A DNA stretch of 39,081 nucleotides from a virus, in IMG/VR virus record IMGVR_UViG_3300027897_000003, positions 1 to 39,081 of that record; one strand, given 5' to 3'. The notes under the pieces were generated by a model. It was not told where the DNA came from. It saw only the letters and a list, made by a program, of their open reading frames with translations, and did no database searches. Position numbers and translations under genes: made by a program. Of the stretch, positions 27,856 to 37,757 are shown in pieces (positions within the stretch are counted from its first letter, which is position 1; the number at the start of each line of letters is the position of its first letter).

Positions 27856-29925
27856 ATGTCGACCACCCTCTACCTGCGCAGCACGCAGAACAACCTGTCC
27901 GGGTACTACGATCTCCTGATCTCGGCGGGCAGTTCGAGCGCGTATGCGGAAGTCAACACGGTGGCGGGCGGGACCGAGATCCAGTGGACGCTCACGCGGG
28001 GCGGCAGCGTCATCAAGTGGGCCTCTGAGCCGTTCGCGGCCGGCTTCACGCTGACCGCGGCCGGCCTGAAGGCGTGGGCGCAGGAGTCGAACGCGGCGGC
28101 GAACTCCGCGCTCCGCTTCCGCTTGTTCAAGTACTCCGGGGGGACGGAGACGGAGCTGGGCGGCGGTCCCTTCACGGCCGAGTGGGAGCTGCCGACCTCC
28201 CTGAGCTACCACAACCTCAGCGGCGACGCGACCGACACCAGCTTCGCGGCTGGCGACCGGCTGGTGTTGAAGTGCTACATCACGAACGTCGGCACGATGG
28301 GCGGATCCCGCTACTGCACGCTCGCCTTCAATAGCTCCACCTATCCGTCGCGCGTTGAGGTGGCCGAGACGGTCGGCTTCCAGCGCGAGCTGGTGCTGGC
28401 GGACGCGCTCGGGGTCAATGACTCACTGGTCAAGGCTCCGGGCAAGGCGCTGGCCGATGCGGTGACGTTGAGCGACGAGGCGAAGCGAGCGGTGGAGAAG
28501 GCGCTGGCGGACGCGCTCGGGCTCGGGGACGAGGCGAAGCGAGCGGTGGAGAAGGCGCTGGCGGACTCCGTCACTCTGTCGGATGTGCTGGCGAAGCTGG
28601 CCGGGGTCTCGCTGGGTGACAGCCTTGCATTGAGTGACGAGTGCATGGCGGAGCTTGGCGGCGGCGGCCTCTCGCTCGAGGTCTGGCCGTCGGACTCCGT
28701 TACGCTGGGCGATGCTCTCGCGAAGGAAGTGGGCAAGGGGCTGGTCGACTCGGCCTTGCTGGCCGACGCTCTCTCCAAGCTGGTCGGCAAGGCGCTGGCC
28801 GACACCGCGACCCTGACCGATGCGGTGGCGAAGCAGGTCGGCCTCGGGGTCGGCGACGAGGTCGTGCGCATCCCCCGGGGCGCGTTCGGCATCGAGATGC
28901 AGGGCGAGATGGACTTCCAGATTCCCGGTCTGTCGGTGGACGCCGGGACGTGGCTGCTCATCGTCGTGGGCGGCGACTGGCACCTGCTGGAGAGCGTGAG
29001 TTTCGGGGGCGTCCCGCTGGCGCAGCTTGCCAGTCACTCGCTCGGCTCCGAGGTCTACCGGGTCGAGGTCTGGGGGGCGTACTTCTCCAGCGCCTACTCG
29101 GGCTCCGCGTTTGCGTATACGGACGAGTACGGCGCGAGCTGCGTGGGCGGGGTCGCGGTGGAGGTGGTGGGCTTGCCCGCCGCGGGCGCGTGGGACGTCT
29201 CCGCCTACGACGAGAGGACCAGCACCACGCCGTCGAGCGGCTATACGGGCCTGCCGTCGCAGGCGCACGAGTTCGCGCTGGGGATCGTGGCGACGAACGG
29301 TCCGCCCACGGACGCGCCGGGGACGTGGATCGGTGGCCTGACGGAAGGCCAGCGTGACGGCTACGACAACGGCTGGTGCGCCATCACCGTCAGCGAGGGC
29401 TACCGGGTCACGACCGAGCGCGAGGCTCAGGTCGCCAGCAAGACGGGCATCACCCTGCGTCCGTGGGGCGCGCTCATTGCGACCTTCAGGGCCCGAGACG
29501 ATCAGCGGGTGTTGCTCTCGGACTTCATCGCCCGGCAGGTCGGGATGGTGGTGGCGGACTCCATCGCGCTCGCCGACGCGGCGGCGCTCACGGTCGAGAA
29601 AGCGCTCGCCGACGTGGCCGTCCTAACGGATGCGTACGTGGTGGTCCTGAACGATGGCGGGACGGCGCTGCTCCTGAACCTCGAGGATGTGCTTGCGCTC
29701 ACGGATGCGTGGACGGCGCTGCGGAACTACTTGGGGTTTGTGACGGAGCTTGAGTACCCGCTCGGGGCGGTGGTGGCGCGGTGTGTTATGCCTCCCGTAT
29801 CCGCTGCCTCCTGCGCGCTGCCCGGGACTCTGGATCGCTCGGCCGTTCTGGAGGATCCTGCTGCCAGTGTCCTTCTTGGGGCGCTGGTTCGCCGTACGGT
29901 CACCTGCCGGAACGTCGTTCGCTAG
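27856..29925 (+). CDS. tail fibre with repeated LADAV-TLSD units
   Basis: A 689-residue protein starting at ATG 27856. The first ~170 residues are a beta domain (TTLYLRSTQNNLSGYYDLL). Residues ~180-335 are built from degenerate 16-18-residue repeats of the form KALADAVTLSD-A---VG (LADALGVNDSLVKAPG, LADAVTLSDEAKRAVEK, LADALGLGDEAKRAVEK, LADSVTLSDVLAKLAG, and so on). A jelly-roll/lectin-like domain (~340-545; GTWLLIVVGGDWH, FALGIVATNGPP, LRPWGALIATFRA) follows, then more repeats (~550-625). Modular repeats plus a lectin-like domain indicate an adhesin that contacts the host surface. Confidence 0.7.
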   Translation: MSTTLYLRSTQNNLSGYYDLLISAGSSSAYAEVNTVAGGTEIQWTLTRGGSVIKWASEPFAAGFTLTAAGLKAWAQESNAAANSALRFRLFKYSGGTETELGGGPFTAEWELPTSLSYHNLSGDATDTSFAAGDRLVLKCYITNVGTMGGSRYCTLAFNSSTYPSRVEVAETVGFQRELVLADALGVNDSLVKAPGKALADAVTLSDEAKRAVEKALADALGLGDEAKRAVEKALADSVTLSDVLAKLAGVSLGDSLALSDECMAELGGGGLSLEVWPSDSVTLGDALAKEVGKGLVDSALLADALSKLVGKALADTATLTDAVAKQVGLGVGDEVVRIPRGAFGIEMQGEMDFQIPGLSVDAGTWLLIVVGGDWHLLESVSFGGVPLAQLASHSLGSEVYRVEVWGAYFSSAYSGSAFAYTDEYGASCVGGVAVEVVGLPAAGAWDVSAYDERTSTTPSSGYTGLPSQAHEFALGIVATNGPPTDAPGTWIGGLTEGQRDGYDNGWCAITVSEGYRVTTEREAQVASKTGITLRPWGALIATFRARDDQRVLLSDFIARQVGMVVADSIALADAAALTVEKALADVAVLTDAYVVVLNDGGTALLLNLEDVLALTDAWTALRNYLGFVTELEYPLGAVVARCVMPPVSAASCALPGTLDRSAVLEDPAASVLLGALVRRTVTCRNVVR
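28474..28566. repeat. 39-bp direct repeats inside the tail fibre gene
   Basis: Bases 28474-28512 and 28528-28566 are identical over 39 bases with a 54-base period, encoding DEAKRAVEKALAD twice. Identity at the DNA level within otherwise diverged protein repeats points to a recent duplication, so repeat number may vary between relatives. Confidence 0.9.
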
Positions 29926-35148: not shown

Positions 35149-35523
35149 ATGAGCAATCCGCAGGACGGCGCGGCGCCGGACCCGCGCCTCGTGAGCCTGT
35201 CCACGCTGGCGCAGGGCGCGGTGGAGGAGTTGTGGCAGACCGCGCTGGCGCAGGTCCTCGAGAACATCGACGACCCCAACACGGCGGCGGACTTCAAGCG
35301 CAAGATCACGCTCGAGTTCGTGATCGAGCCGGCCGACGATCGCCGCTCGGCCAAGGTCACGTTCAGGAGCGGCGTCAAGACCGCCGGCGTCAAGGCGGTC
35401 GGCACCGCGGTCTACCTCGGGCGCCACGAGGGCCGGCTGGCGGCCGTCGAGGCGATCCCGCAGGAGGAGTTGTTCCCGCGTCCGGCGTCCAAGCCGGCGC
35501 TCGTGCAGGGAGGTGGGGCATGA
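35149..35523 (+). CDS. conserved phage early protein (replication-terminator-like family)
   Basis: A 124-residue protein starting at ATG 35149 behind AGGAGGGAGAG. LSTLAQGAVEELWQTALAQVLENIDDPNT, KRKITLEFVIEPADDRRSAKVTFRSGVKTAGVKAVGTAVYLG matches a phage family (L..GA..E.F...L..VL.NI.DPNT....R.I.......P...R....V........LAP......T..Y.G) often labelled replication terminator protein and found next to DUF2303 genes, as here. The label is historical and the true role is unknown. Confidence 0.6.
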   Translation: MSNPQDGAAPDPRLVSLSTLAQGAVEELWQTALAQVLENIDDPNTAADFKRKITLEFVIEPADDRRSAKVTFRSGVKTAGVKAVGTAVYLGRHEGRLAAVEAIPQEELFPRPASKPALVQGGGA

Positions 35524-36308
35524 TCGACGGGACCGCGATCGAGGCGCTCGCGGAGCGTTTCAAGAAGCCGTTTCATGCCGTGGATCCGCTCACCGCGTGG
35601 CCGACGATCATCGTGGTCGGTGGCCGGACGGTGCTGATGGCGCCGGACGGCTGGTCGGAGTACCAGCCGATGCTGCCGTCGGTGCGGCCGCTCGAGGTGG
35701 GCACGCTGGATGCGGTGCCCGAGTACCTGCGAGCGAACAAGGACAACCTCCCGCTCGACAAGCTCGTGGTCCACGTGGCGGGCCCGACGACGGTGCGGAT
35801 CCTCGGGCCGCTGTCCGGCGAGGAGGACCGGTTCCGGCGCCAGTGCTACCTCGAGGCCGAGGCGCGGATCCCCAAGATCCCGTTCGGTCAGTACCTCGAG
35901 TCCGAGGCGTTCGGGATCATCCTGCGGACCTGCTTCGTGGACGCCCCCACGGTGCAGGAGGTCGTGGCGCTGGTGGCCTCGATCCGCGAGTCGGACGTGC
36001 GCGAGACGGTGGACGACGGCGTGGCGCAGGAGGTGAAGGTGCTGCGCGGTGTGGCGCTGGTGGACCGGCAGCGGGTGCCGAGCCCGGTGTTGCTCGCTCC
36101 GTTCCGGACCTTCGCCGAGGTCGTTCAGCCGGAGAGTCCGTTCATCCTGCGGCTGCGCAGCGGTGTCAACGGCGGCCCGCCCACGTGCGCGCTCTGGGAG
36201 GCGGACGGCGGGGCGTGGCGGATCAGGGCGATGGAGGCGGTTGCCGGCTACCTGTGGGGGATGCTGGAGGGCTCGCTCTCGAGCGCCGGCGTGCGGATCA
36301 TCAGCTAG
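35520..36308 (+). CDS. DUF2303 (YfdQ-like) family protein
   Basis: A 262-residue protein starting at ATG 35520 (ATGA overlap). LDKLVVHVAGPTTVRILGPL, IPFGQYLESEAFGIILRTCF, VDDGVAQEVKVLRGVALVD, VPSPVLLAPFRTFAEVVQPESPFILRLRS and LWEADGGAWRIRAMEAVAGYL follow the DUF2303/YfdQ pattern closely (V.HP....V.......R........FP.F.FG.F.......I.L...F.......DDG..Q.V....G........V..P..L.P.RTF.EV.QP.S.F..R......ALFEADGG.W). Widespread in phage early regions with unknown function. Its N-terminus carries VDPLTAWPTII, shared with the connector gene through an exact 34-bp repeat. Confidence 0.75.
   Translation: MIDGTAIEALAERFKKPFHAVDPLTAWPTIIVVGGRTVLMAPDGWSEYQPMLPSVRPLEVGTLDAVPEYLRANKDNLPLDKLVVHVAGPTTVRILGPLSGEEDRFRRQCYLEAEARIPKIPFGQYLESEAFGIILRTCFVDAPTVQEVVALVASIRESDVRETVDDGVAQEVKVLRGVALVDRQRVPSPVLLAPFRTFAEVVQPESPFILRLRSGVNGGPPTCALWEADGGAWRIRAMEAVAGYLWGMLEGSLSSAGVRIIS
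35579..35612. repeat. 34-bp direct repeat, copy 2
   Basis: Identical to 14371-14404 and in the same codon phase. Here it lies 60 bases into the DUF2303 gene. The surrounding sequences do not align beyond the repeat at the DNA level. Confidence 0.9.
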
Positions 36309-36364: not shown

Positions 36365-36652
36365 ATGCGAATCGAGATTCGGCAGGCGCTGGCGGTCAGG
36401 CGGGTGCTGGCGGAGCAGAAGCGGTTTGACGATGCAGCGGAGCTGTACGAGCGTGCGTTTCGGCTGGCCTTCCCGATCGGCCGTAGCCTGAGTTTCACGC
36501 ACGGCCGCTACCTGCGGGAGGCTACGGTAATCGATCACGGCGACTTCGATATGCTGCGTGTCCGTACGAAGCTGGGCGCGGAGTACTGGATCTCCGGTGC
36601 GCGGGCCCTCGCGGCTGTCGGCGGCGCTGGAGGGAGCCCCCGTGTACGCTAA
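36365..36652 (+). CDS. hypothetical protein
   Basis: A 95-residue protein starting at ATG 36365 after GGAGGGAACCG. Helical first half (RIEIRQALAVRRVLAEQKRFDDAAELYERAFRLAFP) then short strands. No family recognised. It overlaps the replication initiator start by 11 bases. Confidence 0.45.
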   Translation: MRIEIRQALAVRRVLAEQKRFDDAAELYERAFRLAFPIGRSLSFTHGRYLREATVIDHGDFDMLRVRTKLGAEYWISGARALAAVGGAGGSPRVR

Positions 36653-37757
36653 GGTCTTTCGTTCTCTCTGGGACGGGACGCTGGCGGACTCGTGGGAGGC
36701 GTGGGCGCTATTCGTGTTCCTGCTTGCGCACGCGGACGCCGAGGGCTTTGTCGACATGACCCCGCAGGCGATCGCGCGCCGATCGTCGATGCCGCTCGAC
36801 GCCGTGCGCCGCGGGATCGAGGTCCTCGAGGCGCCCGACCAGGACAGCCGATCCGATGCCGAGGACGGCCGCCGGCTGGTGCGGATCGATCCCCGGAGGC
36901 CGTGGGGATGGCGGATCGTCAACGCCCGCTACTACCGCGGGCTGACCGACGCCGAGACCGTTCGGGAGTCGGCGCGGGTCAGGCAGGCCGACCGCCGGCG
37001 CCGGGACCGCTTCGAGGCGTCACAGCGTCACGGCGAGTCACACGCGGTCACGGCGAGTCACACGCGGTCACGGCAAGCAGAAGCAGAGGAAGAGGCAGAA
37101 GGATCTACTCCTTCCTCGCTTCGCTCGGAAGGAGCCGGCGAGCCGCTCTCTGGAGGGGTCGGTTTCCAGACCGACTTGGACGGGTACCCTCTCGTGGCCG
37201 ACGGCACTGGCCTCTCGGGGCACGGCCGGAGCGCCAGCGGGCTCGCTGATGGGCCTGCGGCGGGCGCTGGCGGCGTTTCGTGCGCTGGGATGGACTCGGA
37301 GCCGGGCCCGGGAGGACCCGGGTCTCCTGAGCCGGCCACGGAGGCCGGGGGCGCGAATTCACCCAGCTTGACGGACCGCCTTGCGCTGGGGGGGCCGGAG
37401 GCGGCTGGCCGGGCTCGGATGCTCGAGCGTGGGCTGGGGATCCCGGCTGCGGGGCACAAGCCGGATTGGGTGCCGACCGAGGCGATGCTGGCCGAGTGGC
37501 GGGCGGCCTTCCCGGGGGTCGACATCGAGGCGCAGATCCGGGCCATGCGCACGTGGTCGCTGACCCACCTGTCGCAGCGGAAGACCATGCGTGGCATGCC
37601 GGCGTTCGTGAATAGGTGGCTCTCGACCGAGCAGGACAAGCTCAGTCGCGGCGCCGGCGCGGCGCGGTCCGGTCGCTCGCATCGGGCTCCGGCCGACGCC
37701 CGCTACCTCGAGCAGAACCGCCACGCGGTCGGCGGCGCGGAGGCTGGCCATGAGTGA
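36642..37757 (+). CDS. phage replication initiator-like protein
   Basis: A 371-residue protein starting at GTG 36642 after GGAGGGAG. The N-terminal winged-helix part, YAKVFRSLWDGTLADSWEAWALFVFLLAHAD, GFVDMTPQAIARRSSMPLDAVRRGIEVLEAPD, RRLVRID, WGWRIVNARYYR, matches the common phage replication protein (K.F.SI.DGTL...W.A...F..LL...D..G.VD.T...IA..T..P...V...I..LE.PD..S....E.GRR...ID....WGW.IVN...YR). A variable, Gly/Ser-rich linker carries the iteron DNA, and the C-terminal part (WRAAFPGVDIEAQIRAMRTWSLTH, GMPAFVNRWLS) resembles a helicase-loader interaction tail. It should bind its own gene's repeats and open the origin, as lambda O does. Confidence 0.78.
   Translation: MYAKVFRSLWDGTLADSWEAWALFVFLLAHADAEGFVDMTPQAIARRSSMPLDAVRRGIEVLEAPDQDSRSDAEDGRRLVRIDPRRPWGWRIVNARYYRGLTDAETVRESARVRQADRRRRDRFEASQRHGESHAVTASHTRSRQAEAEEEAEGSTPSSLRSEGAGEPLSGGVGFQTDLDGYPLVADGTGLSGHGRSASGLADGPAAGAGGVSCAGMDSEPGPGGPGSPEPATEAGGANSPSLTDRLALGGPEAAGRARMLERGLGIPAAGHKPDWVPTEAMLAEWRAAFPGVDIEAQIRAMRTWSLTHLSQRKTMRGMPAFVNRWLSTEQDKLSRGAGAARSGRSHRAPADARYLEQNRHAVGGAEAGHE
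37019..37134. other. probable replication origin: phased GTCAC iterons plus purine-rich tract and hairpin
   Basis: GTCAC occurs at 37019, 37027, 37037, 37047, 37057 and 37067; the last five are exactly 10 bases apart, i.e. on one face of the helix. They form two perfect 20-bp units GTCACGGCGAGTCACACGCG (37027-37046, 37047-37066) and a partial third. A purine-rich, relatively A-rich tract (37074-37101) and an 8-bp inverted repeat CTCCTTCC / GGAAGGAG (37108-37115, 37127-37134) follow. Lying inside the initiator gene next to the helicase loader mirrors the lambda O/ori layout. The origin function is inferred. Confidence 0.65.

Follow-up and report, generated by a model that had tools for sequence, protein, structure and literature searches.

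The question raised by this locus is why a short DNA word should recur once per helical turn inside a protein-coding gene. The gene, P0001, occupies positions 36642..37757 (+) of IMG/VR virus record IMGVR_UViG_3300027897_000003, a linear contig of 39,081 nucleotides, apparently from a bacterial virus, which was analysed whole and is referred to here as the window. P0001 starts with GTG, encodes 371 amino acids, and is assigned as a replication initiator gene on the basis of its translation and its relatives. We propose that the repeats probably form a phage replication origin, situated within the linker-coding part of the initiator gene itself, and that a basic helix of the initiator is most likely the part that reads the word, GTCAC.

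The helically phased GTCAC array in P0001 is real. Six copies of GTCAC start at 37019, 37027, 37037, 37047, 37057 and 37067 on the + strand (array 37019..37071), and the last five are spaced exactly 10 base pairs (bp). A preliminary description of this DNA had reported five words at 10 bp, which is correct for the last five of the six, and two perfect 20-bp units, which are indeed present as two exact copies of GTCACGGCGAGTCACACGCG at 37027-37066; Tandem Repeats Finder gave 2.9 repeat copies across 37019-37074. The pattern GTCAC-N5-GTCAC occurs four times in the window, all of them in the array (shuffle mean 0.11, maximum 1). The longest chain of one 5-mer at 9-11 bp has five members, a length that 10,000 synonymous shuffles of the gene never reached (four was reached once). 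The words are direct repeats, and no GTGAC partner was found within the array.

Searches with P0001 found 10 viral relatives, and a profile of its N-terminal domain extended them to 62 viral loci and 7 metagenome-assembled genomes, the latter ranging from Burkholderiaceae to Nitrospira, Rhodopirellula and Thermoanaerobaculia. The family set consisted of 58 non-redundant genes out of 69 distinct ones. Further genome searches matched 2/369 and 2/294 genomes; one of each pair was already in the set, and the two new loci were left out of the analysis. The N-terminal domains of three members found no cultured relative by tblastn among 50,697 phage records. When 160 nucleotides of linker from the 58 genes were pooled, matching 5-mers numbered 330 at lag 10 versus 33 in synonymous shuffles, and 205 versus 23 at lag 20 (z 34 and 29, respectively). 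With no spacing rule imposed, the lag spectrum peaked at 10, 20, 30 and 40, and an adjoining tract gave its own signal at lags 6, 12, 18 and 24; a downstream control stretch had little signal (28 versus 12 at lag 10). Lags of 10 and 20 are not codon multiples, which supports selection of the repeat as DNA and not as protein, as the preliminary description had argued. A phased word of its own was found at the same place in 45/58 relatives and a 6-bp-periodic tract in 37/58 (each p<0.05), with both in 31/58, whereas 137 control open reading frames (ORFs) from the same loci gave 6, 7 and 1. Thus, the expected conservation of the repeats holds for their place in most relatives and fails for the word, which is mostly a different one. 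Among 144 chain links, 72 were of 10 bp, 31 of 9 bp and 16 of 11 bp, in a test that admitted only links near one, two or three helical turns. In the linkers of L076, L080 and L022 the orientation of the array switches, GCGAC copies being followed by GTCGC copies ahead of the tract.

The initiator protein has three recognizable parts. The N-terminal domain (residues 1-98; 36642..36935, +) is a winged helix: the AlphaFold2 model of residues 1-123, with a mean predicted local distance difference test score of 91.9, has helices followed by two strands in the winged-helix order, and then a long helix at residues 104-122. Its fold neighbours in the PDB are winged helices generally; 4pql, 5kbj, 4pt7 and 4pta, which we take to be RepA_N plasmid initiators, scored Z 7.3-7.4, tied with many others, and the absence of a closer fold from this list is no evidence of a new fold. 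Among predicted viral structures, five matched with an expect value (E) of 0.001 or less, none functionally named, and several at E 0.006-0.012 are named replisome organizers or replication initiators. The second part is the basic helix LTDAETVRESARVRQADRRRRDRFEA (residues 101-126; 36942..37019, +), the proposed iteron-reading element, and the linker encoded by the putative origin comes after it. The third is a C-terminal domain (residues 252-333; 37395..37640, +) common to phage replisome organizers, which by tblastn matched gp42 of Ruminococcus phage phiRgIBDN1 (37.8% over these residues, E 2e-8) and Vibrio phages (E 2e-7). A search of P0001 against Pfam and PHROG gave no match at E up to 1, RepA_N (pfam06970) in Pfam included, and no O-like family in the libraries used matched P0001. 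The member-by-member scan of the 58 gave scattered weak matches, such as a regulator model (FabT, presumably MarR-like) in 3/58 and a DnaD-like loader family in 2/58. Clustering the C-terminal parts of 56 members gave 29 clusters. L033, L041 and L044 have winged helices 79-84% identical and a common TCAAC-type word, with C-terminal parts in different clusters; therefore, N-domain, helix and origin travel together in these relatives, and the C-terminal domain is exchanged independently of them.

Which part of the protein goes with the word? Similarity between words correlated with similarity between basic helices (Mantel r 0.45), and the correlation remained when the winged helix was held fixed (0.40, p 0.0003, n=42). 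It was 0.47 (n=31) without the 11 genes that hold a copy of the word in the helix DNA. Control segments had no such link, the 30 residues past the tract giving -0.06 and the last 100 residues -0.04. Four QNAQ helices on winged helices only 32-50% identical all occur with GTCAGC/GTAAGC-type words, and the GTCGC-bearing members have the same helix, KREADRxRIAxKRA, before each array, other words being found with other helices. One could instead suppose that the same nested origin is read by the recognition helix of the winged helix and that the basic helix is merely a linked neighbour. Winged helices commonly read DNA, the N-domain model is one, and word similarity does correlate weakly with the winged helix overall (r 0.23). 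However, this correlation disappears when the basic helix is controlled for (0.03, p 0.24), the helix-turn-helix (HTH) alone gives 0.06 (p 0.11) under the same control, and pairs with winged helices 70-86% identical carry different words. In L015 and L076 (86% identical) and in L252 and L011 (68/97 identical), both helix and word differ. A code in the recognition helix had been the subject of the first test and was rejected, since HTH residues 44-58 gave a partial Mantel of -0.002 given the rest. We therefore consider reading by the winged helix, the part to which the preliminary description had tied the word, unlikely; the word goes with the basic helix that follows.

Individual residues of the basic helix were compared with bases in 28 genes alignable without gaps, with positions counted from 0 at P0001 residue 101; these comparisons were made post hoc, and the genes include close relatives. 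Ala or Leu at position 13 occurred with AGC in the word (7/8 versus 0/20), Tyr at position 9 with GTTNA-like words (13/13 versus 1/15), and Asp at position 10 with TCGC (5/5 versus 1/23), while positions 11 and 18 were each Arg in 25/28. Ten further GTCGC-bearing members from a scan all have Asp at 10 and Arg at 13; they are support and not an independent test because, though outside the 42, they had prompted the idea. For a cleaner test, a helix motif was trained on 50 GTCAC-array ORFs from outside the family, chosen blind to protein. This motif ranked the P0001 helix first of 44 and separated GTCAC-bearing members from the rest with an area under the curve of 0.79 (6 versus 38, p 0.013), or 0.95 without two members picked by the scan (4 versus 38, p 0.002).

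In the GTCAGC/GTAAGC group the helices look like bZIP basic regions, with weak database matches: the sole PDB match of the L014 helix was a bZIP (E 7), and helix profile A5 matched PAP1 (E 0.34), 7aw7 (1.7) and TGA7 (3.2), with ribosomal L25 ahead at 0.24. Helix profiles A6-A8 gave no bZIP match. GTCA and GTAA are bZIP half-sites. Tentatively, we suggest that several phage initiator families may read nested origins by a free-standing bZIP-like basic helix with a simple residue-to-base code. In the proposed code, invariant arginines would go with the GT common to the words, and residues at helix positions 9, 10, 13 and 14 with the bases that vary.

The array is followed by the purine-rich tract and the 8-bp inverted repeat that the preliminary description had placed there, at 37072-37104 and 37108-37134. 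The tract (37072..37104, +), with a period of about 6 bp, is proposed to be an unwinding element from its composition and from the periodicity in the family. It is 28/33 purine (85%), a value equalled by just 3/39,048 33-nucleotide segments of the record. Its G+C content (GC) is 0.52 in the scored part (37075-37099) versus 0.72 for the whole gene, so that it is GC-poorer than the gene and not A+T-rich in absolute terms; in the family, tract GC was below that of the own gene in 41/43 members. The inverted repeat, CTCCTTCC-11 nt-GGAAGGAG (arms 37108-37115 / 37127-37134, +), scores 10.5, and a score of at least 10 was found just past the tract in 10/43 members versus 6/207 other gene positions (Fisher p 3e-5). 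The next gene, P0002 (37750..38604, +), overlaps the initiator gene by 8 bp and encodes a DnaC-like helicase loader (phrog_50, E 2.7e-22; phrog_3277, E 9.6e-16), which, with the C-terminal replisome organizer match, bears out the suggested pairing of an initiator-like gene with a loader. Where scanned in relatives, the next gene encodes a DnaC-like protein in L014, DnaB in L016, L035, L068 and L077, and a product with a weak P-like match in L024. These features bear on a second explanation, in which the protein uses the array as an operator or incompatibility site to regulate its own operon, and not to start replication. Arrays of binding sites within genes can indeed regulate, but an operator needs neither the GC-poor periodic tract that follows this mid-gene array nor the frequent inverted repeat, and the downstream genes in several scanned cases are loaders or DnaB helicases. 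Regulation in place of replication thus appears quite improbable.

A protein-blind scan for four GTCAC words at 10 bp found at least 119 stretches in viral contigs. The raw count was rejected as evidence, since a control scan at 15-bp spacing found at least 120 (13-bp spacing 21, CAGTC 34) and plain tandem repeats also match; only spacer divergence and gene identity separate GTCAC arrays from controls. Spacers were less than 60% identical in 35/76 non-redundant arrays among the GTCAC matches listed and in 21/47 GTCGC arrays at 10 bp, as against 3/17, 3/23 and 3/98 in three control scans (together 9/138). Of the same 76 listed GTCAC matches, 54 lie in sense ORFs of at least 150 residues, with matches to phrog_3729 (replication initiation, 19), phrog_1408 (replication initiation, 11), a DnaD-like loader family (9), a primosomal family (6) and a replisome-organizer family (5); an ORF can match several families, so these counts are not additive. 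Among 80 control ORFs, the replication-named family with the most members had 4. After the array, a clear period was found in 31/54 of the listed ORFs, of 5 bp in 20 and of 6 bp in 8; a 5-bp period is half a helical turn and not a codon multiple. Such 5-bp tracts, for example of ACAGT or TAGCC units, lie just past the array in L093, L125, L202, L089, L094 and others. Since GTCAC arrays are found with several initiator families, the words might also be bound by a protein of the host, which would account for one GTCAC grid being shared across the families. A host factor, however, predicts one word per host, whereas the words vary within one family and track the initiator's own helix, and we hold this explanation to be very improbable. 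Hardly credible is a neutral 20-bp tandem duplication in a low-complexity linker, for although two exact copies are what a recent duplication leaves, 20 bp is not a codon multiple, relatives carry other words on the same 10-bp grid, and diverged spacers are far commoner among the listed GTCAC matches than in the controls.

Two further arrangements were seen in the scan. Three genes of one initiator family (L097:630-1676, L135:10293-11375 and L146:3759-4781) have two phased GTCAC arrays per initiator gene, with six copies near codons 45-63 in the probable N-terminal DNA-binding domain (L097 offsets 134-186) and a linker array (offsets 415-456), as if the putative origin were bipartite. In L181:1735-3231, an initiator-like ORF, a T5orf172/MUG113 domain stands right before the GTCAC array, an arrangement that looks like the insertion of an endonuclease-like domain; in L023, a stretch similar by eye takes the place of an array.

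Several observations weigh against a nested origin read by the basic helix. In the window itself, neither the 6-bp periodicity of the tract (p 0.16) nor the inverted repeat (weakly above synonymous shuffles, p 0.06) is significant by itself. A significant array was absent in 13/58 relatives, and 42/58 is a safer count than 45/58, because up to three calls look spurious (L021, L034 and L082). The next-gene products of L022, L070 and L071 match nothing (3/10 scanned in both libraries). The motif also has exceptions to a simple rule, L165 and L194 scoring low and three TGTCC-type members high. The p-values for helix and word do not come from an untouched sample, because the idea arose from reading the same family, and linkage of array and helix through lack of recombination could mimic a code; countering this, the segment after the tract, though also near the array, has no link to the word. 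Finally, the cumulative GC skew over the whole linear record rises steadily through 37 kb with no minimum, where the preliminary description had expected one. The skew is weak evidence either way, because no end repeats were found in the record when looked for and the genes of the window, by the ORF list, are apparently mostly on the + strand.

For the nested origin that we favour, we propose the following mechanism. Initiator monomers would bind GTCAC one per helical turn, on one face of the DNA and in the same direction, binding being suggested by the observed spacing and direction of the words. Base-specific contact would most likely be made by the basic helix lying in the major groove, and the winged helix would probably support binding or hold neighbours together; both roles are suggested by the correlations with the word. 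By likeness to lambda, SPP1 and pSK41, the resulting filament may strain or open the adjoining purine-rich, GC-poorer tract, and the C-terminal domain may pass the opened strand on to the DnaC-like loader of the neighbouring gene. Array, tract and helix lie in a single gene, so that the putative origin and its reader are inherited together and can change specificity jointly, a pattern seen in the relatives.

Few uncultured phages have a known origin, and a grammar that can be read off the sequence (10-bp words, a 5- or 6-bp periodic tract and an inverted repeat, all within the initiator gene) would make it possible to call origins on contigs. If it is the basic helix that reads the word, the specificity of initiator for origin could be predicted, and tested on natural pairs with different helices and words under almost the same winged helix. 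If the bZIP-like code is true as well, a single recombination that swaps a 20-residue helix and a DNA array would change specificity. This would account for the diversification of origins while the winged helix is conserved, and initiators could be paired with origins from their sequences alone.

Elsewhere in the window, an ORF upstream of the initiator gene (35232-36308) matches phrog_1029 (unknown function, E 1.5e-53), and a 54-bp tandem repeat of 2.3 copies, a codon multiple, lies at 28444-28566.

Nested origins are established for lambda, SPP1 (oriL, gene 38) and pSK41, and inferred for 80alpha (PMC5043065, PMC7466680, PMC6316719, PMC5703833, PMC5499656). The likeness to lambda ori drawn in the preliminary description holds for the order of elements: iterons in the middle of gene O, an A+T/purine-rich tract, an inverted repeat (by eye) and a helicase-loader gene (PMC7466680, PMC5043065). 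It does not extend to the protein, as P0001 has no sequence relation to lambda O in the libraries used. In lambda, O dimers bind iterons of about 19 bp that form nearly perfect inverted repeats (PMC5043065). Those iterons are spaced at 20-24 bp, whereas the window has direct words at one turn. In the staphylococcal RepA_N plasmid pSK41, a 120-residue winged-helix N-domain binds four boxes located centrally in rep, and the origin encodes the linker; pPR9 is chimeric, with another N-domain and its origin swapped as a block (PMC5703833), which parallels the module exchange in the family described here. P0001, however, has no RepA_N match in Pfam, and in structure it is as close to many other winged helices as to these initiators. 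The 80alpha origin is placed within ORF20 from failed complementation in trans (PMC5499656), and ORF20 was negative in the 9-11 bp phased-word test (p 0.42-0.50, in stretches with its repeats). The phased-word test was positive for lambda O and for phiRgIBDN1 gp42, both with spacings to 24 bp and 8-mers allowed, and borderline for Vibrio H20 gp38 (p 0.04). The 'replisome organizer' gp42 has the C-terminal domain in common with P0001, and its linker carries TGTCAACC four times at 11 bp (p 0.005), followed by a TA-rich tract; its N-terminal sequence and its word differ from those in the window. In Gram-negative iteron plasmids the iterons lie outside the initiator gene, and the initiators belong to other families. 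Like the array in the window, these iterons are mostly direct repeats in helical phase; they bind monomers (PMC5043065), as is proposed here for GTCAC. The open-access titles and abstract beginnings searched do not describe this initiator family, the helix-word link or a 5/6-bp tract; this scope does not extend to the 2006 review by Weigel and Seitz, where earlier predictions of nested origins would most likely be found. Nested phage origins are thus a known kind. Apparently new, as far as searched, are this family of initiators, the spacing of short direct words by one helical turn, the recurring 5- or 6-bp tract and the link between helix and word.
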